DNA of 64,000 bases, taken from Watersipora subatra (Eukaryota > Bryozoa > Gymnolaemata > Cheilostomatida > Watersiporidae). Position 1 is the stretch's first letter. Each line of letters begins with the position of its first letter. The notes beneath the pieces were generated by a model. That model had not been told where the DNA came from. It saw only the letters and a program-made list of their open reading frames with translations, and did not search any database. Made by a program: the position numbers and the translations under genes. Below are positions 10,701 to 63,958 of this stretch, piece by piece. The stretch is taken from assembly GCF_963576615.1 (NCBI RefSeq), contig NC_088710.1, forward strand, positions 4,444,001-4,508,000, read 5' to 3'.

Positions 10701-13700
10701 CACTCTCCTTGAGCCTTCCAATAATTGATTGCGTTTGACAGGCTTCCAACTACTAGCCGAGCCGGGCACAATGGCATAGTGCCAGCACGTACTAGTAGTA
10801 ATACATGTACTAACCTTGATAGTCCCGTCGTATGATGCCGACGCTAATGTCAGTGTACTATCTGGTATGAACTGTAAGTGAGAGACGTGATCTGTGTGGT
10901 CTAAAAGCTCAAGCAAGATGCTGCCTGCAAGGAAAATAAGTAACGTTTGACTTGCAAACTTGTTGAGGTATACTACGTTATCTTTATTACTGGTGAAATT
11001 GATATATTGGGGTATTCTATCAGATTAAATTGATATATTGGGGTATTCTATCAGATTAAACACACACTATAAAGCAACCAAAATAAACATACTTTTATAC
11101 CCCTTACATCTTCCCTTCATTATCAGAAAAAATATTACAGTTCTGATCTTGATTGAGGTGCATGATATTACATGATAACCAAGTCAGGTCTGTTAACAGG
11201 AAACAAGCGCATGAGTGGTGATGCATCAGCGAAGGCTGTTACCTAAGATCTGTAAAAATATGTTTAATGTTTTCAGGCTACAATAATTGAACACTTGCCT
11301 TAAAACAAGTGCATTCAGCTCATGCAAAAAGTATTTTATTGGCTTCGCTTGCTGGTCTTTGATAAGATAACTACCGTGGTGGGCACTTATCGCTGTAATT
11401 ACGATGTCAGTTACATGTGACTGAAACGACATGAGGAAGACACAGATGCACATAGGACTAAACCAATGCTTGTCGAAAATCCCATTCAATAAAAGGATAG
11501 TTTTTTCGACATTTTGTCAAGCCATACCCTTTTAGGGATTCCAAAAGCATTCATGTTCACCTACATCATATTTAACATGTACTACTGATTTATACCATTT
11601 ATGTATTCTTTCTCTTTTCCTCTGCTGTATTTACACAAATGCTTTTGCTTTGTTAATGGTCACAGAATTTTAAAAAGACTGTCCATGTTACATATTTGCT
11701 CATTTTGCTTCGAACTAACATGGTTAACCATGGGGAGACAACCACTTACTTTAACTATCATACTGACTGACTTAATAATACTAAATACAGCTATTACATT
11801 TAACTTTTTAATGAAATACATCAGAGTTATTCTAATAGTACCGTCCCTCAAGTCAAATTGTTGTCACTTGCTTTAAATATTATGTTTTTAATGGCACATG
11901 ATGAAAAGCATTTCTTTTTGGGGATGATACGAATGCCAAAGAATGATTAACAAAAGTCAATGACACTAAAGAAATGCAGTTATTGTAAACGCATAACCAT
12001 CCAAGCAGTAATTGTAGTTGAATCAAGAGGGATGGGGCATGGTAAATCCCATCATTAATGCAAACGCAGCGTGTTGTACGTGATGTTGTTGATATGATGA
12101 AAGCAGAAAAACTATTTATCATTATCTTTCAAGCGCGGAGACTTTCGCAGACGTGACAAGACAAAATATTCTCACGTACTCACAAACTTTGTAGTTAGTG
12201 TGTTTAGCTAGGATCTGGCAACAAGCACTTGTTTACAAGTGGCACTGATGACACTAGTCAAGGCATATAGTTGAAAAAAACCAGTTTACTGGCTATCCTC
12301 AACATTTTCATATGAAGAGGACTACCAAAATTTGAGGAAGTTGGTTGAATTGGATTCACGTAAGTTTGGGTCAAAACTACTCCGCATTTGCTGAAAATAT
12401 TTGATATGGCAACACAACTTCAACAGAGTGAATTGGCTGACAACAGCACCAGTTCCTTGGAATTTGCTTTGGAAAGTGAAAAGAAAACTCCTACTATTTA
12501 TCAGTAGTATCAGTATACCATTACTAACACTATGTATCAGAACATGTGGGTCAAATATATAACTGATTACTGTATGTATAGACAAGTATTATCTGAAGAG
12601 AGTACAGAGTACTAGCAAACACAACTATATAAGTTTATAGATTCTACATGAGAACTCAGGATATGTGACATTTAAACAATAGTACAAACAAGCTTCAGAA
12701 AAAACATTGTTAGGATACAATAATGTTTGACAAGGAGACTGCACCATATTATGGATAGGTTGGGCACGACACGCAGGTGATGTTTGACAAGGAGACTGCA
12801 CCATATTATGGATAGGTTGGGCACGACACGCAGGTGATGTTTGACAAGGAGACTGCACCATATTATGGATAGGTTGGGCACGACACGCAGGTGATGTTTG
12901 ACAAGGAGACTGCACCATATTATGGATAGGTTGGGCACGACACGCGGGTGACTGATGATTAATAAAAGGCGAATGTAATGGCAGCTTCGGTTTAATCTAA
13001 TAATATGATGATCAAATAGGAAAAACCATTTTCCAGGTTTATATCTGTCAATAGCCCATCGGAAGGTTCCAAGGAGTAACTAACAACAAACGACTAACCT
13101 GTATTGACATCGATGAGCCTGATGCGACCGTTCCTCATCCCAATAGCCAGCACCTGGCTATGTTCTTCCCATTGGAGGATACGGTAATTGTGAGTATCTG
13201 TGGGCACTTGTATGCTGTCTCTGTGCCTGCTGAGGTCCGCAAACTCCAGTGCCATTACAATTTGCCAGCAGTCAATTTTGATGCACTTTTCCAGTGCCCT
13301 ATAACGCATATTATTAGTTGTACTAAAGAAAGACTAAATATTTGCTGTTTTTTGTTGTCCATCATTGACACTTTAAAGTTTTTGCTGTTTCACACCTGGT
13401 TTAATAGATAGGCATATTCAGCGTTCTAACAGTTAGTTAAACAAGTTGCTAGTCTATAGAAGTGTCCGTTGGCCAATAAGTGTATAAAGTTACATTTACC
13501 TCACATCTTGAGATATTACCAATATGGTCAACAGCTGCACTTAAATTCTCTATCTGTAGATATTATCCAATTTGTGACCCTCGCATGTGGAGAGAGAAGG
13601 GGGGGGGGGGGGGTGTGAGAATTTGATAACAAATGGGCATCACCAGATATTGTCTTTCTGTCTTTCAAGGAAATAACTTTGGCTATCATTAAAAAATTAA

Positions 13701-18711: not shown

Positions 18712-51836
<33,125 letters not shown>

Positions 51837-53245
51837 ATTAACATACGAGCCTCCCACCAGATGTTGTCAATTTGATGGTTATCTCATCATTATCAGTATA
51901 TGGTTGTTGATCATAGGACTTGCTTTCTTTCTTGCTCAATGTCAGCTGATCATCTGGCATTGAAAAATAATGAATGGGCGATGTTCTAGCAGACTCCATG
52001 ATAACAGTTCCAAGAAATGCAAAGCTTTGTACTTTCTCCTGCAGGCAAGTCAAAAGATGGCAAGTGCACAACACACTGACTGACTAGAGTAGTCAAGGTA
52101 TAGCTGTTGTTGATTTCTATTAAGCTTGTAGTTCTCTAAACACCACTGTTTCTAGTCGGCAATTGTGCGACAGGTAGCTAGCTTCCACTGTCCTCGTTCG
52201 GTAGAACCCTAATGTGTCAAGTAGCTAATTCGGTGAAGCTAGCTGCCATTTGCCATTGCACTCTCGATCACACGCTGTGTCACTAGTGCACTTGACAGTC
52301 AACGAACACGGGGTACTTGAAGGAGTTTAAATATGGTGCTAAGCCTGACACTCCCGGACTCTTGCGTCCAGGAGTCGTCTGTAAATTTGTGGTCTTGCTG
52401 TGCCATACCTCAGTGTTGTTGGTGTTTTGTGCTTGCTAGTGTGTTAACTCTAGGTATTGACTCACTAACGTGAATTTGCCCTAACATAATGTACCAAAGA
52501 CCGCTGGCTCCACAAAGGAAGTCGATTGCCTGATAATTATAGAATTGATTTGGTGTTCACTGGATGGTACGATAGGTAAACGCTGCATTGGTGCAGATCA
52601 GTATTTGTAAACGCTTGCATTTTTGTTTTATCAATTCGAATTTTTGCATCACATGCTTTGCTATATCATGCCTGTGCTGTGGTTTGTGATACATTTGCTA
52701 ATTTTATCACCTTTGGCACAGATCTTGGCTTATATTCAGACTTTGAATGTGCATATTTTTCAATCTTTTGCAAAGCTGTTGTGAATATTGACGTTCCACC
52801 GAAATATTTAGGTCAATTTATATTATTATATTTCTGCGGGCATGTAACATTGTTGAATCTTTTTTATTTATTTATATATGACAACTTGACCATTTGTGTT
52901 GACATACCGCAAATAAGAATCATGCAGTAAACTCTGCAACCTCCAATAAAGATGTCTTTATTGTTGTGCAATCTGTTTGCATAACAAATAGTATTAATGT
53001 TCATGTTATATTCAAATATAATTTAAGATTTAAATAACTTCATAAAGTGTGCTGGGAATGAAATTGTTGAATGTTAATTAAATTATCAAAAATTAATGAA
53101 TGTCAGTGAAGCAGCTCGAAAAATATAACGAGCAATAGAAAGTAAGTAAATGTGGGCTAGAAAAGGGTGATAATAGATAAATCAGTTTGACTATTGCTCA
53201 ATTTGGTTGTGTGACTAGTATGTCCCGACCTGCATGTTTCAATAA
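51837..53245. other. Convergent 3' region between S6K and the HEAT gene
   Basis: A non-coding region of 1.4 kb holding both 3' UTRs. A small imperfect hairpin (actcccggac / gtccaggagt) lies at about 52349-52374. A palindromic pair of poly(A) signals at 52945-52962 is listed separately. No other feature. Confidence 0.6.
52945..52962. terminator. Back-to-back poly(A) signals for two convergent genes
   Basis: AATAAAGATGTCTTTATT contains AATAAA on the + strand (52945-52950, for S6K) and AATAAA on the - strand (52957-52962, for the HEAT gene). They form an 8-bp inverted repeat with a two-base centre. The signal is 1.1 kb past the S6K stop and about 290 bases past the HEAT-gene stop. Confidence 0.6.
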
Positions 53246-56200
53246 TTATATGTCATACAGTGCTCCAGACTCCAAATCTGTTGGATTCCTATGTGGAGCA
53301 GGTGATAAAGTCAAGGCTGTTGGAGCTGTGCTGCCAAAGTTTGTTGGGAGGGTTTTGTAACCCCACGGTTTATTTTGCCGAGCTGGGTTCTTAGGTGATG
53401 TCCTGCCAGTGAGCACCTGCAAACATGGAAACAACCATTACAAGAAAGTTGATTCGGGGGAACTATCTGTTGGGAAACAGCATTTTATTTAGCAGAAACT
53501 TACCTTTATTAACTCTTGTATTTCCGCAGTAAGTACCTTGGTCATCTTCATAGCCCTATTCACCTCATCTCCGCCAATTTGTTGGAGGGCTAGTTCAGCA
53601 GCGTCTCTAACACTTGAGATATAGTCATTTCGCCTAAAAGGAAGTAAGACCAGAATATACACCACATCATTGACTTGGTACAACATACTGGAGACCCTTT
53701 CATGTGTTAGTGAAAGCCTTGTTTTTGAGCTATGTTCATTCTCTTATTTTCATGTTTCAACCAAAAGCACACTTTGAGTGCCTTTTTAAATGTATATGTT
53801 TATTATATCGTAAACACTAAGGTTCTAAACAACAAATTAATTGCTTTGACATCATAGCACTTCAGTCTTGAAACCAAACCCGAATTGAATTCAAAATGTT
53901 GAAACTGAAATTTTAAAATGGGCCATCCAGAGTAATTATCACACTTGTCATCTTCTGTCCATGTAATGCTGGCAAGTACAAAGTGTTGTTTCATCATTCG
54001 CATTGCTTCCATTTCATTACATGCTTTATTTTTATTTTTACTGTTTTCACTTCAGGATGGACCATATTACTTATACTAGTCAGCGCGCCTCATTTGGTTA
54101 CATGTTATGACAACTCTTGAGTCCTTGAATAACAATACAAAAAACATTACATATGTACAGCACAGAAGCTAAATATGTACAGCACAGAAGCCCATAATAT
54201 CTGTACAGAGCAAAAGGCATCCATATCATATATGTATAGTGTTAAGGCACATTATGCATTTATATATAGGCACAAAAGCAGATTACATATGCGCAGTACA
54301 TTGCAACACATTACTAATATCTCATGTGATCGGAAACAATTATATTCATATGTTAAATCGGCAAAAGCTGCCTACCATATTTGTAGGAGTGCTGGGACAG
54401 CTGTGTTTGCCTTGAGATAGCCAAGTGCAATGCAGGCGCTCTCTCTCACAAATCTGTCTTTATCCTTCAAACACTTCATCAGTCTATCTATCTTCATATC
54501 GAGATCACCAGCCTTTGATTTTGCAAGCGATATACAAGCGGAGGCACGTACGTCGTGCTCCTGGTCGTCTAGGAGGTCGAGTAAAGCTTCCACCACAGCT
54601 ACGCTACCAAACTTGGCTACAAAAATTTTAAAAATGGCGATTTCATGACATTAAATTAACAAAAAGACATCAAGTGATAAATTGATGGAAGACCATTCGT
54701 TATTCAACCCACATGTGCCTGCCTTCCTCATCAATCATTGTAATTATGGAATTTCACATTCTTTTTTATTGTCAATCAAAGTCATGTCAGGAGCTCAAAG
54801 AATAATAAAGAAAGACCTGCTTACCTAGATTATTGATGGCATCGAGTCTGACAGAAGAGTCCATGTTGAAAACCTCTTTCATAGTATAATTCTCTACAGC
54901 CAAATCATTGACACACTTGAGAATCGGCTGCTCCTTCATCGTCCCATCGCAATCCTCAGTGATGAACTCTGCATAAAGTTGATAAGTAATTATTCAACCA
55001 CCTTGCAACGGGTGCTTGTGTCACTAGACCAGTTCTATTTCACATTACTAGGGCTCGTTAAACCGGATCGACTAAATCTGTACCTTTATACTTATCCTTG
55101 TGTATAAGTCCATCTTCCTCCACCTCTAGTTCTCGTTTAAGAATATCGATGAACCATTCTCGGTCTGTTGATGTTCCGTAGGTCATGGTCAGCTGACGCT
55201 CATAATCTTTCATAAATGCAGCCTCAAAGCTAAAACAAGAAAAAGATAACTCTATACTTGTCCTAAACTTGGAGTGTATGAAGCTAGTCAGTGCAACAGA
55301 TTAACCCTTTAGCAGACGAGTTTTTTTGAGGTATTTGAGACTCCCTGGGCAAATTAATTTTTCGCAAATTGATTAAAAAAAATCATTCATGCACTTTTAT
55401 TTATCATATTGAATGCGTGTATTATGTTTTTATGATACAGGTAAATGCAAATAAACATGTTTCAAGTCAATTCTTCATATAACTGTTTCTCTAGCTATGG
55501 TACTTTTGGAAGCATTCGATCTTGCAGAGACCCACATCGCAGTCTTGAAACCGTGTGCATATTATTATTCCTCTATAAGCCTTGCCTTTGCCTATACCTT
55601 TTGGAGGACACCATGACAGTAAAATAAAGTTTTTTGCACTCTAGGAAAATATTCAGAAAGCAGAAACAATTTACAAACAAGATTCTAAATTTTATTCAAA
55701 TACGTATTTTTTCGGATTTTCTTTCTTTTAGTATTGCAAAACGATCATTTTTTCTTCTCAAAACGGCTTATTTTTTGTTGCTAACAGAGATCAATCTATT
55801 GTAGTTTACTATTGGTAAAAAATTAAACAACAAACGGCAATTAGCTAACCAAAAATCAATTTATGAAAAACCTTCGTGTAGTAACCTAATAGTCGCTCTG
55901 CCCACTAGCGTCAGTATAGCTAGTGGGCAGAGCGATACAGACTAAAAGTTGAACATGACTTGGATACGTACTTGTCAAAGAGAACTGTTTGCTGATCCTT
56001 AAAGTTTCTATCCCAAAACTCTGCCAGGGCATCTATATCCTCAGTTTGTTCGATGATAGAGTTGCAACGTGAGAGTGACCGGTTAGAGCGGTTATAAAGT
56101 TTTGGTCGAGTATGACGTTTCCTCAGCACAGGCTTCCTCTTCAGAGGACCCTCTTCACCAGCTGGTGAAAGAGGTGGCAAACCTACCAACGATAAAAATT

Positions 56201-56996
56201 GTGCTCATAATTACCAGTTAAACAACCTACACCAGGCCAGGCATCCACGAGTTGTTAGTCGAATACAAAGAAGTCACATAGATCGCAGTGGCACAAGGAA
56301 ATCATATCTCAATCACATCTGTATTAAGGATTCCTGGAATCGATTATCCTCAAAATCACAAGTGTGTATCAGTATTCGACTGACCACGATTTCCAAATCA
56401 TTTACATTCTTTGAATGAAATGGACTAGATAAACAAGGGGTAAGAACTTCATCACACTCCATATTACGTAAGATGCGCATGTGGCAACCAAATGAAAGGA
56501 AATAAAATTGTGTTGAGAATGAATCGTAAGACCCACAAACTGATAAGTACTGCTGCAAGCTGCGACAAACTTTTACGTGCAGATAGGAAAACTTACAGGC
56601 GTAAGATCTGTTAAATAAAACAACTTATAGAATATCTTACCGTCTAAAATAAATACGTCCTACACATTTCTAAGTAATGCAAATTTTATCTTATATACCG
56701 AAAACATTCGTGTCACTCTCTAAATTCCCATGACACAGCCTAAAATACAACTCGGCAACACCAGTCCGATATTCCTTTGATGCCCCATCATACGTCACCA
56801 GATCCTCAACACCTTTCCATGCCTTCCTTTCTTCTGATAGCTTTTCAAGATTTCTGTCCATAACAAACTGTTTTGTTGTACTTCCTTGTTCAATGTTTAA
56901 TAAAAGGTTATCTTTTCCACAGTTTTCCCCGGGTGCAGAGCCAAATATAAAATTTTTAACTCTAACTATAATATGCTTGCCACAGTTGGCAGCCAT
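53246..56996 (-). CDS. HEAT-repeat protein with Cbl-type EF-hand-like segment (HEATR4-like?), seven exons
   Basis: Exons are 56996-56699, 56182-55972, 55229-55084, 54968-54825, 54616-54376, 53633-53504 and 53416-53246, with clean splice sites and matching phases (446 residues). Residues 1-100 are an unidentified acidic/basic region with DLVTYDGASKEYR. Residues 101-130 are basic (LRKRHTRPKLYNRSNRS). Residues about 145-225 hold FWDRNFKDQQTVLFDNFEAAF and DGLIHKDKYKEFI, which resemble the EF-hand-like linker of Cbl (AEFWxxxF...WxxFxxAL). Residues about 253-375 form HEAT repeats (DSSVRLDAI, HDVRASACISLAKSK, RFVRESACIALGYLK, SSVRDAAELALQQIGGDE). The tail is Pro/Thr-rich with KPWGYKTLPTNFG. The start ATG has a strong context (AAGATGG) and an in-frame TGA two codons upstream. 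Exons 2-7 may instead be the C-terminal part of the upstream TIR gene. The function is unknown and the HEATR4 relation is tentative. Confidence 0.75.
53634..54375 (-). other. HEAT-gene intron 5, with degenerate repeats
   Basis: A 742-base intron. At 54152-54191 tatgtacagcacagaagc occurs twice, 22 bases apart. More diverged gtacag...aagc relatives continue to about 54300. Nothing else recognised. Confidence 0.55.
55230..55971 (-). other. HEAT-gene intron 2
   Basis: A 742-base intron with a piggyBac-type left end (TTAA then CCCTTTAGCAG at 55301-55315) that lacks a matching right end. A perfect 17-bp inverted repeat is at 55893-55935. The rest is AT-rich. Confidence 0.6.
55893..55935. repeat. 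Perfect 17-bp inverted repeat (hairpin)
   Basis: Arms TCGCTCTGCCCACTAGC (55893-55909) and GCTAGTGGGCAGAGCGA (55919-55935) with a nine-base loop. In the pre-mRNA it lies 36 bases inside the intron after the exon at 56182-55972. Confidence 0.95.
56183..56698 (-). other. HEAT-gene intron 1
   Basis: A 516-base intron, nothing recognised. Confidence 0.5.
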
Positions 56997-57026
56997 CTTT
57001 CATAGTTCCAAATCTTGAAAATGGCC
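56988..57026 (-). promoter_or_regulatory. Possible internal promoter at the HEAT-gene first exon
   Basis: The start codon lies in AAGATGGCTGCC (- strand, 56999-56988), which resembles the YY1-type AAGATGGCGGC element often found at transcription or translation starts. An opposed AAAATGGCC lies at 57018-57026. This fits, but does not prove, an alternative first exon with its own promoter. Confidence 0.3.
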
Positions 57027-57143
57027 GACGACATTATGTAATGAGTGCATGAGTTATGCGCGATAGCCATTTGTGACATAACACACGGCTACAAGAGAAT
57101 TAGTAGCATGCCACTAACAATCATCTACTAAAGGAAAGCTGTG

Positions 57144-60100
57144 CTAACCGTCCAAGTGCTCATCTTTGACACCATCAATGTCATCGAGACAGGCCTTGAG
57201 TTTCTTGAGCAACAGGCCGACATCTGCCTCCAGCGTATCGAGAGATATCTGTGTCCATTCGAACCGTGCCAACTGCAGTTTCCTGTGGAACAGCAGAATA
57301 TCATCACTTGAGATATTCACACATTTCCTCCCAACTGCGCTGTACACCATGTAATATGTGACATTATCATTATACAATTCCCAGGCTGCTACTAAATATA
57401 GTTGAGCCAGTTGGGCCGGTGAGCGGCATCCATCTTAACATATGTCAATCGGCGTCACACTCATCCTGGCAGAATGTGATAAACATGCGAGGAAATTCAA
57501 TTAAGCGACGAGCGATAATGGCTCCAAGAAGGACAGTAAGAGTAAACAGGCAAAAGACAGGGGAAATGTTTCAACATTTCAACCAGAAAAGTAGACTGTG
57601 CACTTTGAACATAGCGTGGAACTTACAAGTCACCAACCAACCAGCTGTCACAGGAATTTGTTATATACAGTCAATCTCAAGCACGCTTTAGAAGGGCAAA
57701 CAAGAGCAAAGTCTAACCAAGTTTCCTTGATCAGAGTTGTGATTACACATGGGGGGCTGATTACGCATGCCTAAGAACTCCTGGCACAAAATCATCATCA
57801 TCGGTCAAAACTCAACAATGCGGTAATTATATCTGGTTTGGTACTGCCCCAAGACAAGCTCTAAGTGCCAGTCCACTTTGACTGTTGTCTAGTAACCTAC
57901 GAAACATTGAACAGTGTTTTTTAAACAATACCCAAAAAGGCCAATGGGGGTGACAAGAATGACATACAACTTTGAATTGCTATCTGCAACCGGGCATAGC
58001 TCTAGTCGTCAAGGTTCCCTTATCCTTTATCACATGACTAGCCAAGACCAACAAGCCATTGTTTGTGCGAAAATGCTGTTAAAAACCGGATAGGCATAGC
58101 CTCAGCTCCCAGTAAGCTAAGCAGACAAGCAGCAATTGCCCATACACACTGCACATTAGCTGCTACGCTGACAGATCTCCCACCGTAGTTAACTGATGCC
58201 AAGCTCTGGCTACTTACATTCCTGTAGGAATTTTAGGGAATATCTCTGATTGTGGAAGAATGCTGACCGGAAAAATGGGCTTGTTGGAGATGTAGGCCAG
58301 CGCTAACTCATCCTGACAAAACTTTGATTTGACTGTCCTTTCAGTTAATAATGTGATAAACATCTGCAAAAGGAAAATCAATCAATTTATTTCTCAGCTG
58401 ACTAAACAATGAATAACGATTTCAATAAAATACTTTTAAAAGAAGTCTGAAGCAACTGAGCAGAATTCGCTTTTATACAAACTATTAAAAAAATGAAAAT
58501 CTATTGGAATAACCTACAAAATGTAGGTTAATGGCTTGTTTTTAAATCTACTGGTGTTTGTCAGTCTCCTATAATGTCCATTCATGAGTGATGCAACTAA
58601 CGCAGGTAAGGTATGTGATAAAAGGTAAAGAATTTGATGACGCCTCATTCCAATGATGAATCAGTGAGCAGATAGATTTTGTTAATAATGCAGCTCACAT
58701 AAATGTTCATGCTATACAAGCTATGAGTGCCACGCTACACTCATGACATACAATGGGTGGGTGCTTTCGGATATTCTACATGTAGGCTACCATAGAAAGC
58801 CACGCATGACGACGTATTACAAAATACCTATCACGAAATGCACTACTCGGCAAACAGTCGTTAAGTTTTACGCATATCCATAAACTTGGAGTTATCTTCT
58901 ATATTCTGTTTTAGCGGTAGCTGACCAGATGGGTAATTGCTCTATTGAAGAACAATGAACAAATCAGATAAAACATTTCAACACATACTGAACACACTCG
59001 TTATTTTACAGTTATCGTAGCTTGAAAACCAAATATTTGAAGATCTCTGGAGACAGCGTTTGCGCTTATCGACTGCTAACAGGCCCCACCCAAATTAGGC
59101 TTTCGCTTACAATTGTGTAGCCTAATCAATGCACAAGTTAAAAGAGTGTGAATCCTAATGTCTCATGTATACCTAATCACTCCCTACATGTAAGGAATTT
59201 AAAAGCACATTCATTGATTAGACACACCATCTATTCCTATAAGAACACATCTTGTAAGAATTGTTTAATTGGCTCCACAACCATAAAAATGAATAATAAA
59301 TACTTAGGTAATTACATATAGCAATAAAAAGTACTATATCAATCTATATTAAAAACTATGTAAAAAATCAAATTATATGTAAAGAATAAGCTTAACTAAT
59401 CAGTTAATAATCGATGAAGGTATTATTGGCATTTCAATTTTACGTTAAATATAGCGCGACGGAGGTGTAGCCTCGGTAATACAAGAGACGGATGGGGTGC
59501 AGGGAAAGGCCATGACAGAAATAAGGAGCTATTATAACTGGCTACACAAACTTTGAACCAAGATTTATAATTTTTGAATTTAATTTTATGCATCTAACCT
59601 TCAATTATCACGACCATCCTTTCCTCTTTCCCTAATTGAGGCTTTCTTTTCTTTCTAGAGCTTGCACCTTTTTATCTTCCCAACAACAACTGCTAGACAG
59701 CTTTGGAGGTTTCAACAATGATTTTCTAAAATTTCCCTCGTTAGTTCTACGGAAAGCATTACCTTTTTCTTTTTCCATTGCTATTTCCACTTGGACAGGT
59801 TTTCAAACTAAAAACTAAACTAAAAAAAGAAAGATACGAAACACTTGAATATTATTCAAACACCTGAGAACCAAACCAGTGTGAATGAGAGGTGCATGTA
59901 TTTGCGCTGATTATGATAATTCTTTGCCTAAATGCAAATAAAAAATCACCACTACCTACTTAAAAGTTTAAACAAACCAACTAGCTGCAGAATTTCATGG
60001 CAATAGTCTTGAAGTGATTCTATATCTCCTCCAGCTTGCTGATCCTAATATGAGTTTTAATACTGGTAAAATTCCATCACAATTAATGGTTATCTCTCAC

Positions 60101-63100
60101 ACTATTAAGTTGTTTGGATATGATGACCTTAGAGGAAGACTGAGGGAACACCGGCTTGCAATGCTAAATCAGAGTGTCCACACAATTTCAACGTTATTAC
60201 CAAATAAAGTGGTGCAACCAATGAGTGTCTCTAATATGTCAAATTTGTTACAAAATTTGGCATAATACAACTAAAAACATGCAACAATGGCTGCGTGATA
60301 CGAAGTAGCTGTCACTTGGCATTTCATTACTTCTACTGCGAGAATGTTTTGACCTACAATATCTTTAACCAAACATTTAGACAGAGAGTGATGAGGTGAA
60401 TGTGATAATAGCTTGAAAGTGAGCTGCCTAACTTTGTGATTCCTATGGCTCAATGCCGCTGCCATCTTAATACTAGACTAAAGCGGATACTCCAACAGGC
60501 GTGCCTAAATATAGGTTAGTATCAGATTCATAAACATAAAAATTTTTTCCAATTTATTGAACTTAATTTTTTATTCAACTAATTTAATACTATTTAGCGA
60601 ATCCAGTACAAGCTTATCCAAAGAACTTAAGTTGAGCAAATAAAACAAGGTAGGCTGTCTACTCTAGCATAGACTCTACACCAGTCACCATACATTGCAT
60701 GCATATTCCTTGAATTTATCTGCATATACATTAAAAGCCACATTCTATATAATCCAACCAGTTCTATTACGAAATTCCAACGATGATGGTTTAAGATTAC
60801 AAGTATAATTATTCAGACAGTGTTGCAGTTTTTAATAGTTTATCATAGTCTATTCTTGGTTGTAAGAAATTGCTTCAGGCTCCGCGAATACATGATGAGG
60901 GTGTTTAAAATCGTTGAGCGAGTCATATAGAACCTAGTCAAGGGCTGAGTGTTGTTCAACTCTAACGACACTCTTTGTGCATCTTCTCAAAGCTATCAGC
61001 TTACAGATTTCATTCGCTTTCAGATTGATAGTGTGAGTCAGTCTATTTGTTCTGCTGCTTTACCGGATCTTTCCCAATCATTCACTATCATTCATGGCAG
61101 GCGCTGTACACATACTTCACTGAGTGAGTGACCATCGATCAATCTAATATAAAAGGAGTGATAACGAGTTTACGCCAGACGATTGCAAAGTGTAATTTTT
61201 GCAGTTAAATCCAAATGAATCGGGCAGTAGAATTTAGAATCTATCAGCCCCATTTTTCACTAATGACTTAACGTGTTCGATGTGTTCGATGTATCTACGG
61301 CGACGGAATTCTTTAACCTACACGCAGGACTGGCTTGTAATGTGACACTTGGCATACTGTTTCCATGCGTAATTCCAGCTATCGGTGATGTGGACTCTGC
61401 AACTCATTAGACTGGTTTGTAAGTCAGTAATGAGAACTGAATTTAGACTAGCATTGATTCCAACCGATGTTTGCATGCCAGTCACAGACTTCACTCACCT
61501 TCGAATCGATGATAGCTTGTCCGATTTTGTTAAGAAAGTCGACACCAGCATTGAGACCGACAAAGTCGACCCAGACCGAGATATTATGGGCCTCCAGCGC
61601 CTCTGTAAAATATATGACTTGAATTGTTATATTAGCTGGGTGACTAGCTGTTGAACCAGTGCAAATCACGATTAAATGTTTTAACAAGGGCAGGGTACAG
61701 ATTATAGCCCTGAGAAAATCGATAGAAATGGTCGCAAGTGAGTGATGAAGCACAAAACAACAGCAAAGTTTATCAGCAGACACAGAATGCTGCCTTATTG
61801 CCGCTGTAGCAGGCCCGCTGCTGATCAATAGAGGGAGGGAAAACACCTCCCAAGGGAGAAAAAGATATCTAATCAGCTTAGAGGTCCCATGAGCTATATT
61901 TTCTAGTGAGATGACGCTGGCAGAGCTTCCTAGTGATTACAAACTTCTATAGACCTACCTACTTCTATGGCATAACTATTTCTATGAACCTAACTACTTC
62001 TATGGACCTAACTACTTCTATGGACCTAACTACTTCTATAGACCTACCTACCCTAGGACACTTATATTTCGCTAGTATTTAGTTTCGTGAGTAGCATACA
62101 GAGTAAAATTTCGCTGGAACTTAATTTCGCAGCTCTGATGAGTGCGAAAATATAGTGATGTGAAAATAAATGCAGTGGAACAAACATTAGATTCCTCAGG
62201 TCCAGTTCACTGGTACGAAATATTTTTCAATTTGGGACTACCGTACTGTTTGGACTATAAACCGCACCTCTATATAAGCTGCATGTGCTTTATTTTCCAA
62301 AAACGATAAAACAATACATAAGCCGCACCTTACTATAGGCCGCAGAACTAAGGACTGTGCTTTTTTAACGTGGCAGCAACTTTGCCATTTAAAACGGAAC
62401 AGTGCAGAACGGCACAGTTTCGTATTATCCGACGTTTTTTAACGTAGTGCCTAACGGGACAGTACCGTGAGGCATTGTTTCGCATTTTCTTACAAAGCTA
62501 GAAGTGCACTAATTGGAGATTCCCGTTAGTGCGCCCTAGCGGTGAAAGAAAAAGCCACAGTGATTAGCCGCACCCTTGCACCTATAAGCCGCATAGCTCA
62601 AATCATCAGAAAAAAGTAGCAGCTAATCGTCCGAAAAGTACGGTAGTTTGTATTTGTTAACCGCAGGTAGAAATGTGTAGGCGAGATCAATAATGCAATT
62701 TGATCGCTTGCTGCAGTTTGTCTCCTGGACTATCAATGACGTCTAGGTTCCTGCTGCAGTGGCTGATGTTGTACCAATATTAGAATTCAAGTATTTATAG
62801 CACGTGGTGCCGCGGTGGCCATGGCCCTGGGTTGTTATTGCTTTTGGTTGGTAATAAAATTCATCACCACAATAATTATTATTCAATTTTATTACTTTCC
62901 CTACCAGACTGTCATCCTCATCAGTTACAAATTCAATGACTAAACTAATATCATCATCTTCTTCATTTGTTTAGGCTTTTCCAAAAAAAACTTATTAACT
63001 TAATTTGTTTTGCCATGCTGCTCAGTCGGTGTATTAGCTATAATGAGTTTAGCAAAACTTGCCCAATGAGCCAACCACACACGAAAATTGCCTGCATTTC

Positions 63101-63958
63101 TAATATGGCGATTTTATTGTGAATATCAATGAAGAAAGCCATTTATTTTCGCGTTTTCGCTCGTTCGTTATGATAGTTTAGTTTCGCTCATGAAATTTTC
63201 GCGAGAGGCTGTTGCCGCGAAAACGCGAAAGTTAGATGCCGCGAATACATAAGTGTCCTAGGGTACTTATATGGACCTAACTACTTCTACAGACCTACAT
63301 CCTTCTATGGACCTAACTACTTCTATGGACCTACCTACTTCTACAGAGATATCTCGTTCTTTAGACATACCTCCTTCTCTAAACCTCTCTACTTCTATAA
63401 ATTTACCTACTTCTATGGACCAACCTATTTTTATAGACCTACCTACTTTTATGGACCTACCTACTTATATGGACCTACCTTTCAACTTTAGCATGATTTC
63501 TTTATCGCTATGACTGTAACTGATCATGATGTCCTTTGCCTGAGAATCCTTGAGGCTACCATTAGAGCTAGATCTATGATGGTCCCCAGTTTGAGCTGGG
63601 TATGCGGCTGTCTTGGTGCGAGTTGGTGTTGGAGTATTCGACTTGCTATTCGATCGACTATGATTTACGTCTTTTGTGACTCTGACCTTATCCGCCGGTG
63701 CCAAAGGCGCAGGGCTTGGTACATATACTGTCTTCAAACCATTGTTGTTGATCAACTCACTACTGCTTGTTATTAGGTTACCACTACCACTCTCTTTATA
63801 TTTTTGTGCAGATGTCGGTAATGAATGTTCTTTTACAGTAAGATTTTCCGTTGGGGCTTGTTTTTTTTCAGAGTTGAAGATAGGACTGCAGCTTGTGGTA
63901 GGACTCTCTCCATTGGCGTTCACATTACCCATGTTAGTCGGAAAGTCAGTTGTATCAC
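57144..63958 (-). CDS. TIR-domain protein, 5'-partial; may splice onto the downstream HEAT exons
   Basis: Exons visible are 63958-63479, 61602-61499, 58363-58218 and 57282-57149 (or to TAG at 57144). The first begins in phase 1 after a good 3' splice site (CTTGCAG), so more 5' exons lie beyond the window. About 130 Ser/Thr/Pro-rich residues precede a full TIR domain: KDIMISYSHSDKEIMLKLK (box 1), EAHNISVWVDFVGLNAGVDF, IGQAIIDSK, FITLLTERTVKSKFCQDELA and MKLQLARFEWT. The Glu in FCQDELA sits where SARM1-type TIR NADases keep their catalytic Glu. This form is common among intracellular invertebrate TIR proteins linked to innate immunity. The last exon either ends at TAG (288 residues seen) or splices at GTTAGC in phase 1. 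Phase 1 is what the HEAT exon at 56182 needs, giving at least 634 residues. Confidence 0.85.
57283..58217 (-). other. TIR-gene intron before last TIR exon
   Basis: A 935-base intron, with only chance open frames. Confidence 0.5.
58364..61498 (-). other. TIR-gene intron between domain exons 2 and 3
   Basis: A 3.1-kb AT-rich intron. Short open frames near 60014-60465 on both strands have no domain that I recognise. No clear repeat. Confidence 0.5.
61941..62050. repeat. 18-bp minisatellite, left part
   Basis: About six imperfect copies of atggacctaactacttct, cut off at 62050 by a transposon. The array resumes at 63264. Confidence 0.92.
62051..63263. mobile_element. 1.2-kb non-autonomous DNA transposon with 15-bp perfect TIRs and TA duplication
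   Basis: The left end CCCTAGGACACTTAT (62051-62065) and the right end ATAAGTGTCCTAGGG (63249-63263) are perfect inverted repeats. TA is duplicated at 62049-62050 and 63264-63265. Removing the element with one TA restores the local 18-bp repeat (cctacctacttatatgg), which also occurs intact at 63455-63471. Subterminal regions repeat tttcgc/gcgaaa motifs. There is no transposase. A TA target suggests the Tc1/mariner superfamily or a similar group. Confidence 0.92.
62241..62643. mobile_element. TA-flanked MITE of the CCGTAC family, copy 2, nested in the 1.2-kb transposon
   Basis: The ends are CCGTACTGTTTGGACTATAA and, as complement of the right end, CCGTACTTTTCGGACGATTA. TA lies on both sides (62239-62240 and 62644-62645). 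It is related to 7788-8142 along its length. It sits wholly inside the 62051-63263 element, so it inserted later. Confidence 0.88.
63264..63480. repeat. 18-bp minisatellite, right part
   Basis: About twelve imperfect copies of the same 18-base unit, more diverged in the middle (63345-63400). The array ends exactly at the 5' splice site of the exon 63958-63479. On the - strand the donor GTAGGTCC is its first unit. Confidence 0.92.

Follow-up and report, generated by a model that had tools for sequence, protein, structure and literature searches.

The question raised by the locus at 53246..63958 on the minus strand of a 64,000-nucleotide stretch of Watersipora subatra (contig NC_088710.1, positions 4,444,001 to 4,508,000; hereafter the window) is how its TIR-coding exons relate to the HEAT-coding exons that follow them. 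A preliminary description of the sequence had proposed that a single gene yields two products: a TIR-EF-HEAT protein and, from a separate ATG-started exon, a HEAT protein devoid of TIR that could act as partner or inhibitor. The exons very probably form one TIR-linker-HEAT gene (gene A), and in all likelihood the ATG frame at 56996-56699 does not serve as an alternative start. The overall best explanation, with a probability of roughly 0.6, is that this single gene A stands beside a head-to-head paralogue, gene B, situated just past the right end of the window.

Exon organization and domains of gene A

The exon model of gene A, together with the two features of its T4-H1 intron that bear on the question, is as follows:

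63479..63958, minus strand: exon T1, Ser/Thr/Asn-rich N-terminus and start of the TIR domain; possible start MGNVNANG at 63932; leaves phase 1
61499..61602, minus strand: exon T2, TIR domain, with the Asp that corresponds to Cat1 D33; phase 0 at its end
58218..58363, minus strand: exon T3, TIR domain, KSKFCQDEL with the Ser and Glu aligned to Cat1 S68 and E74; leaves phase 2
57149..57282, minus strand: exon T4, end of the TIR domain; donor ACG/GTTAGC, phase 1; the unspliced reading is GGT TAG
57144..57146, minus strand: in-frame TAG, made by the T4 donor sequence itself if T4 is spliced
56699..56996, minus strand: ATG frame of the preliminary description (MAANCGK...NVFG), within the T4-H1 intron; most likely a chance open frame
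55972..56182, minus strand: exon H1, linker without a Pfam family; 56161 offers a better acceptor in the same phase
55084..55229, minus strand: exon H2, linker, FEAAFMKDYERQL...
54825..54968, minus strand: exon H3, linker running into the first HEAT repeat, EVFNMDSSVRLDAI
54376..54616, minus strand: exon H4, HEAT repeats
53504..53633, minus strand: exon H5, last HEAT repeat
53246..53416, minus strand: exon H6, the C-terminal tail, closed by TAA; nearest AATAAA beyond at 52962

All introns of the model are GT-AG, with the exon ends at 61499 (T2), 55972 (H1) and 53416 (H6) each shifted one base by hand, and the joined exons are stop-free, giving 626 residues from the ATG at 63932, or 619 with the H1 acceptor at 56161. 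The TIR part passes the Pfam cut-off for TIR_2 (PF13676; 7.7e-18, 65.6 bits, cut-off 28 bits) and the remainder that for HEAT_2 (PF13646; 1.1e-17, 64.5 bits, cut-off 27.7 bits), which bears out the two domains named in the preliminary description. Its "EF-like" designation was not confirmed; neither the linker nor the ATG frame matches any Pfam family above cut-off, EF-hand included.

The arithmetic behind the proposed two starts was reproduced in full: one base remains at the end of both T4 (57282-57149) and the ATG frame (56996-56699), the exon at 56182 supplies two more and yields GGT (Gly) by either join, the six exons after either join stay open to the TAA at 53246, and 147 bases separate the TAG (57146-57144) from the ATG at 56996. 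AATAAA is absent from the 961 bases of the minus strand between 57143 and 56183, as had been stated; among eight poly(A) signal variants sought between the TAG and H1, ATTAAA (56901), GATAAA (56690) and AATACA (56325) occur once each. Splice sites were scored with consensus frequencies as weights, unfitted, and by these scores the acceptor at 56161 is better than that at 56182 in the same phase; its junction codon would be Ala, not Gly. We infer that gene A would be transcribed as one unit in which T4 joins H1, probably through the acceptor at 56161.

An 18-bp minisatellite was also observed in the T1-T2 intron of gene A, at 61943-62051 and 63264-63480, where the roughly 1.2 kb in between may be an insert; the T1 donor sits on the edge of this array.

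A co-linear paralogue beyond the window

A tblastn search with the exons of gene A detected a second copy, gene B, on the plus strand at C3:4512632-4537904 (window base 1 is C3:4444001), just outside the window, in which nine exons were read:

C3:4512632-4512737, plus strand: exon T1, with its own ATG
C3:4513219-4513304, plus strand: exon T2, acceptor set manually to give a fitting phase
C3:4518046-4518191, plus strand: exon T3
C3:4518375-4518503, plus strand: exon T4, donor CAG/GTGAGC
C3:4519410-4519650, plus strand: exon H1, starting 906 bases past T4; leaves phase 0
C3:4535848-4535939, plus strand: exon H3, needs phase 2
C3:4537091-4537192 and C3:4537300-4537435, plus strand: H4, as two exons
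C3:4537763-4537904, plus strand: exon H5, including the TAA

Gene B passes the Pfam cut-offs for both TIR_2 (1.2e-11, 45.6 bits) and HEAT_2 (5.8e-19, 68.6 bits). Genes A and B are 34% identical, with a missing B exon left out and one junction residue assumed, and are co-linear through TIR, linker and HEAT parts. Intron phases are common to the two at T1/T2 (where the B acceptor was chosen to fit), T2/T3, T3/T4, H3/H4 and H4/H5. The T4 donor of B scores 7.95, is near-consensus and ranks second among 16 donors (A T4 and the ATG frame apart). Since B is co-linear with A, has the same domain order and possesses a near-consensus T4 donor, these comparisons support one ancestral TIR-linker-HEAT gene behind both copies. 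The part of the two-product proposal that joined TIR to HEAT in one gene is thereby supported by the domain order of B, and the part that added a TIR-less second start is not.

A genome search with the linker-HEAT part of gene A returned A and B and nothing else, and a search with its TIR part returned only A's own exons; even the TIR of B thus lies beyond the reach of the latter search. Genome-wide, 19 PF01582 matches were observed, and other TIR-domain loci are clustered at C4:2.20-2.27 Mb and C4:57.55-57.83 Mb.

The ATG frame in the T4-H1 intron

An ATG frame with 99 codons or more, on whichever strand was being read, was detected in 80 of 1204 overlapping 961-base stretches (193.6-kb region, both strands, unmasked). 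With the exons of A and B, the two intron frames and the two large tandem arrays masked, the count was 56 of 1042 stretches; among first-order Markov sequences it was 44 of 3000. A matching phase would arise by chance in one case out of three. A codon score was trained on the A and B exons, 19 in all, against a background that excludes the T4-H1 intron; the ATG frame scores -0.081 and the exons, scored one at a time by training on the remainder, -0.033 to 0.399. Of 572 further open frames with at least 60 codons, 157 reach -0.081; when the background took in this intron itself, the score was -0.091 and was equalled by 31% of the others. The donor of the frame, GTATAT, scores -2.02, under all 16 other A and B donors scored (0.80 to 7.97; A T4 apart).

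Searched against the 784-Mb genome at E 0.1, the protein of the ATG frame has no match except itself. In the T4-H1 intron of B the best local score with it was 32, equalled by 8 of 24 control stretches of like length, and in the 16-kb intron of B it was 36, equalled by 12 of 16 such stretches. The CpG observed/expected ratio (o/e) at the start of the frame is 0.52-0.72, with no peak, and a single-sequence AlphaFold model was uninformative (mean predicted local distance difference test score, pLDDT, 46.9). Owing to the self-only genome match, the background scores in B, the low coding score, the weak donor and the chance frequency, the ATG frame is rejected as an exon or second start; it probably arose by chance within the intron. 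A mobile-element origin was partly tested: the protein matches itself alone in the genome, and local blastn returned just short matches (194-kb region and eight other loci).

The T4-H1 intron of B carries an open frame of its own, of 114 codons (C3:4518609-4518950, plus strand), at a position corresponding to that of the ATG frame in A; it is not like that frame above background and has no Pfam match above cut-off.

Active-site residues of the two TIR domains

Cat1, a CRISPR-associated TIR NADase, is the best PDB sequence match of the A TIR domain (8.8e-7), over 78 residues without gaps. The residues listed for the Cat1 active site in its published account are S7, H8, N9, N10, D33, S68 and E74 of one chain and K121 and Y122 of the other; A is identical at S7, D33, S68 and E74 (with an offset of two), and K121 and Y122 fall outside the matched 78 residues. 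The Asp, Ser and Glu are kept by A and by three bacterial TIR domains (one each from three of six loci), whereas B in that alignment carries Glu in place of the Ser and His in place of the Glu, aligns an Ala with the Asp, and is without five residues soon after a conserved Trp. The residue set of NAD+-cleaving TIR enzymes (NADases), Cat1 D33, S68 and E74, is therefore present in A and not in B. On these residues A is somewhat favoured to be an active NADase; that A is catalytic and that B has lost this capacity are predictions, residues being no proof of activity.

The TIR region of A weakly matches several bacterial TIR defence-system models, with no match of the whole protein. A bacterial TIR-HEAT relative was sought by scanning genome contigs with two TIR peptides, which gave six loci; the three read by eye (L033, L034, L038) have TIR adjoining pentapeptide-like or other parts and no HEAT, a result that says little.

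Head-to-head layout and CpG content

The start of A (63932, if this is the true start) and that of B (68632, positions past the window end being its numbering run on) face one another 4.7 kb apart. CpG o/e was computed in 966 windows of 400 bases, where it averages 0.61 across the region and stands at 1.24 at the 95th percentile, and reached 1.27-1.77 in four consecutive windows at 67800-68800, upstream of B. This peak is uncommon, though not unique: the sole other such run in the 193.6-kb region is C3:4524001-4525400, with six windows at 1.24 or more. We infer one divergent promoter for A and B with a long first intron in A, a tentative reading; the first exon of A was not found.

Alternative explanations

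One gene with two starts, in which an internal promoter at the ATG frame would yield a TIR-less HEAT protein besides a TIR-EF-HEAT protein, is consistent with an open frame of about 100 codons in the correct phase and with no AATAAA ahead of it, but the frame has no genome match apart from itself and no counterpart above background in B, scores under all 19 exons in coding content, has a donor of -2.02 against the lowest of 0.80 among 16, lacks a CpG peak at its start and belongs to a kind found in 56 of 1042 masked stretches, and this explanation is considered very unlikely. Hardly more credible is a fission in A that left a TIR-only gene with its end at the TAG at 57144 and, beginning within or beyond the ATG frame, a HEAT gene; the weak T4 donor of A (1.21), the in-frame TAG and a T4/H1 phase unlike that of B would suit it, while the 961 bases past the TAG contain no AATAAA (and one ATTAAA, at 56901) and B retains the TIR-HEAT join with a near-consensus donor. 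The ATG frame might also be a cassette exon within the full protein, running 267 bases from an acceptor at 56965 to 56699, with phase 1 at both ends and an open frame; its acceptor scores -6.8, equalled or bettered by 63% of all AGs, and is too poor, no counterpart stands above background in B, and this least probable of the explanations was rejected.

A simpler reading than any of these takes B for a duplicate in decay, with A acting alone and the head-to-head layout reflecting only where the copy landed. It draws on the absence from B of the Ser, the Glu and the residues after the Trp, and on the phase mismatch between B H1 and H3, but the nine B exons found keep open frames bounded by GT-AG introns and end in a stop codon, the HEAT part of B is well kept (HEAT_2 5.8e-19) and a CpG-rich stretch lies ahead of its start; such decay is a genuine possibility, at odds well short of even. 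The preferred explanation, a single gene A beside a head-to-head B, has several observations to answer as well. The T4 donor of A scores only 1.21, beating just 2 of 16 other donors, and the two genes disagree at the T4/H1 intron (phase 1 for A, phase 2 for B), where the boundary may have shifted in either gene since the linker is poorly conserved there. The exon required between B H1 (phase 0) and H3 (phase 2) was not found, the best candidate scoring 34 against 29-39 in 25 control stretches, so that B may be broken. The coding test is weak, as 6 of the 19 exons score just -0.033 to 0.030. A differs from Cat1 at H8, N9 and N10, and the Asp of B is alignment-dependent, an Asp standing one column further on. 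A CpG o/e of 1.00 at 56400-56800 and the second run of at least four CpG-rich windows, at 80000 in the long intron of B, keep the promoter reading soft.

Proposed mechanism and relation to known systems

Under the explanation of a single gene A beside B, the HEAT solenoid of A would bind a ligand or keep the TIR domains apart, and on activation these domains would assemble and cleave NAD+ using the retained Asp, Ser and Glu. B, without the Ser, the Glu and about five residues after the Trp, would be a non-catalytic partner, perhaps transcribed from a CpG-rich promoter in common with A. HEAT control of an NAD+-cleaving TIR with B as a dead partner is less sure than the production of one TIR-linker-HEAT protein from A, and a functional, non-catalytic B is on its own a doubtful proposition. 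The partner or inhibitor of the preliminary description accordingly fails as an isoform, and a possible partner exists as the neighbouring gene. In plant pairs, one partner is catalytic and the other, the sensor, is not. An animal counterpart of such an executor/sensor TIR pair, with a shared divergent promoter, an NADase, a partner without catalysis to sense for it or hold it in check, and HEAT replacing NB-LRR, is a speculative analogy, somewhat less probable still. If the explanation is true, the linked TIR-HEAT pair would be a small testable system for the control of NAD+-cleaving TIRs in a non-model animal, with a possible parallel in the immune pairs of plants.

Neither TIR nor HEAT is a new domain, and SARM1, the NAD+ hydrolase of animals, pairs a solenoid with TIR in reverse order. 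SARM1 has Armadillo and/or SAM followed by a C-terminal TIR (PMC7075850). A resembles it in uniting a repeat solenoid and a TIR domain in one protein and matches it weakly in TIR sequence (E about 0.006); it differs in its N-terminal TIR and C-terminal HEAT, in the lack of SAM by Pfam and in having two linked copies, and the SARM1 order is not found here. With Cat1 the likeness lies in the best PDB match and the identity at S7, D33, S68 and E74, and the difference in the HEAT repeats that stand instead of a Pfam-reported CARF domain, in H8, N9 and N10, and in an animal as against a bacterial origin. In the plant head-to-head TIR-NLR pair CHS3-CSA1, function of the executor CSA1, the partner of CHS3, requires the catalytic Glu (PMC11298796). 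The likeness is one of layout and residues only, namely divergent neighbouring genes and residues of A and B that would fit a catalytic and a non-catalytic partner; neither A nor B has an NB or LRR domain by Pfam.

TIR proteins are widespread among invertebrates, some with further domains, in the consulted portion of PMC6321704, and several eukaryotic TIR lineages beyond the Toll/MyD88, plant and SARM1 groups are described as uncharacterised in that of PMC13142454. A and B could not be placed in a family of the invertebrate ecTIR-DC proteins, which count among the closest known systems. The TIR-HEAT architecture is unmentioned in the parts used of PMC13142454, PMC4346834, PMC6321704 and PMC7075850, and among the titles listed on TIR plus HEAT or on invertebrate TIR families no animal TIR-HEAT protein was recognised, although one may already be in print.

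Tandem arrays elsewhere in the window

A 36-bp satellite occupies 24558-31685 with 198 copies at 95% match, and one frame per strand is open in it for about 2,400 codons. Smaller tandem arrays were observed at 43883-44154 (39-base unit), 35374-35590 (15-base unit) and 12723-12990 (57-base unit).

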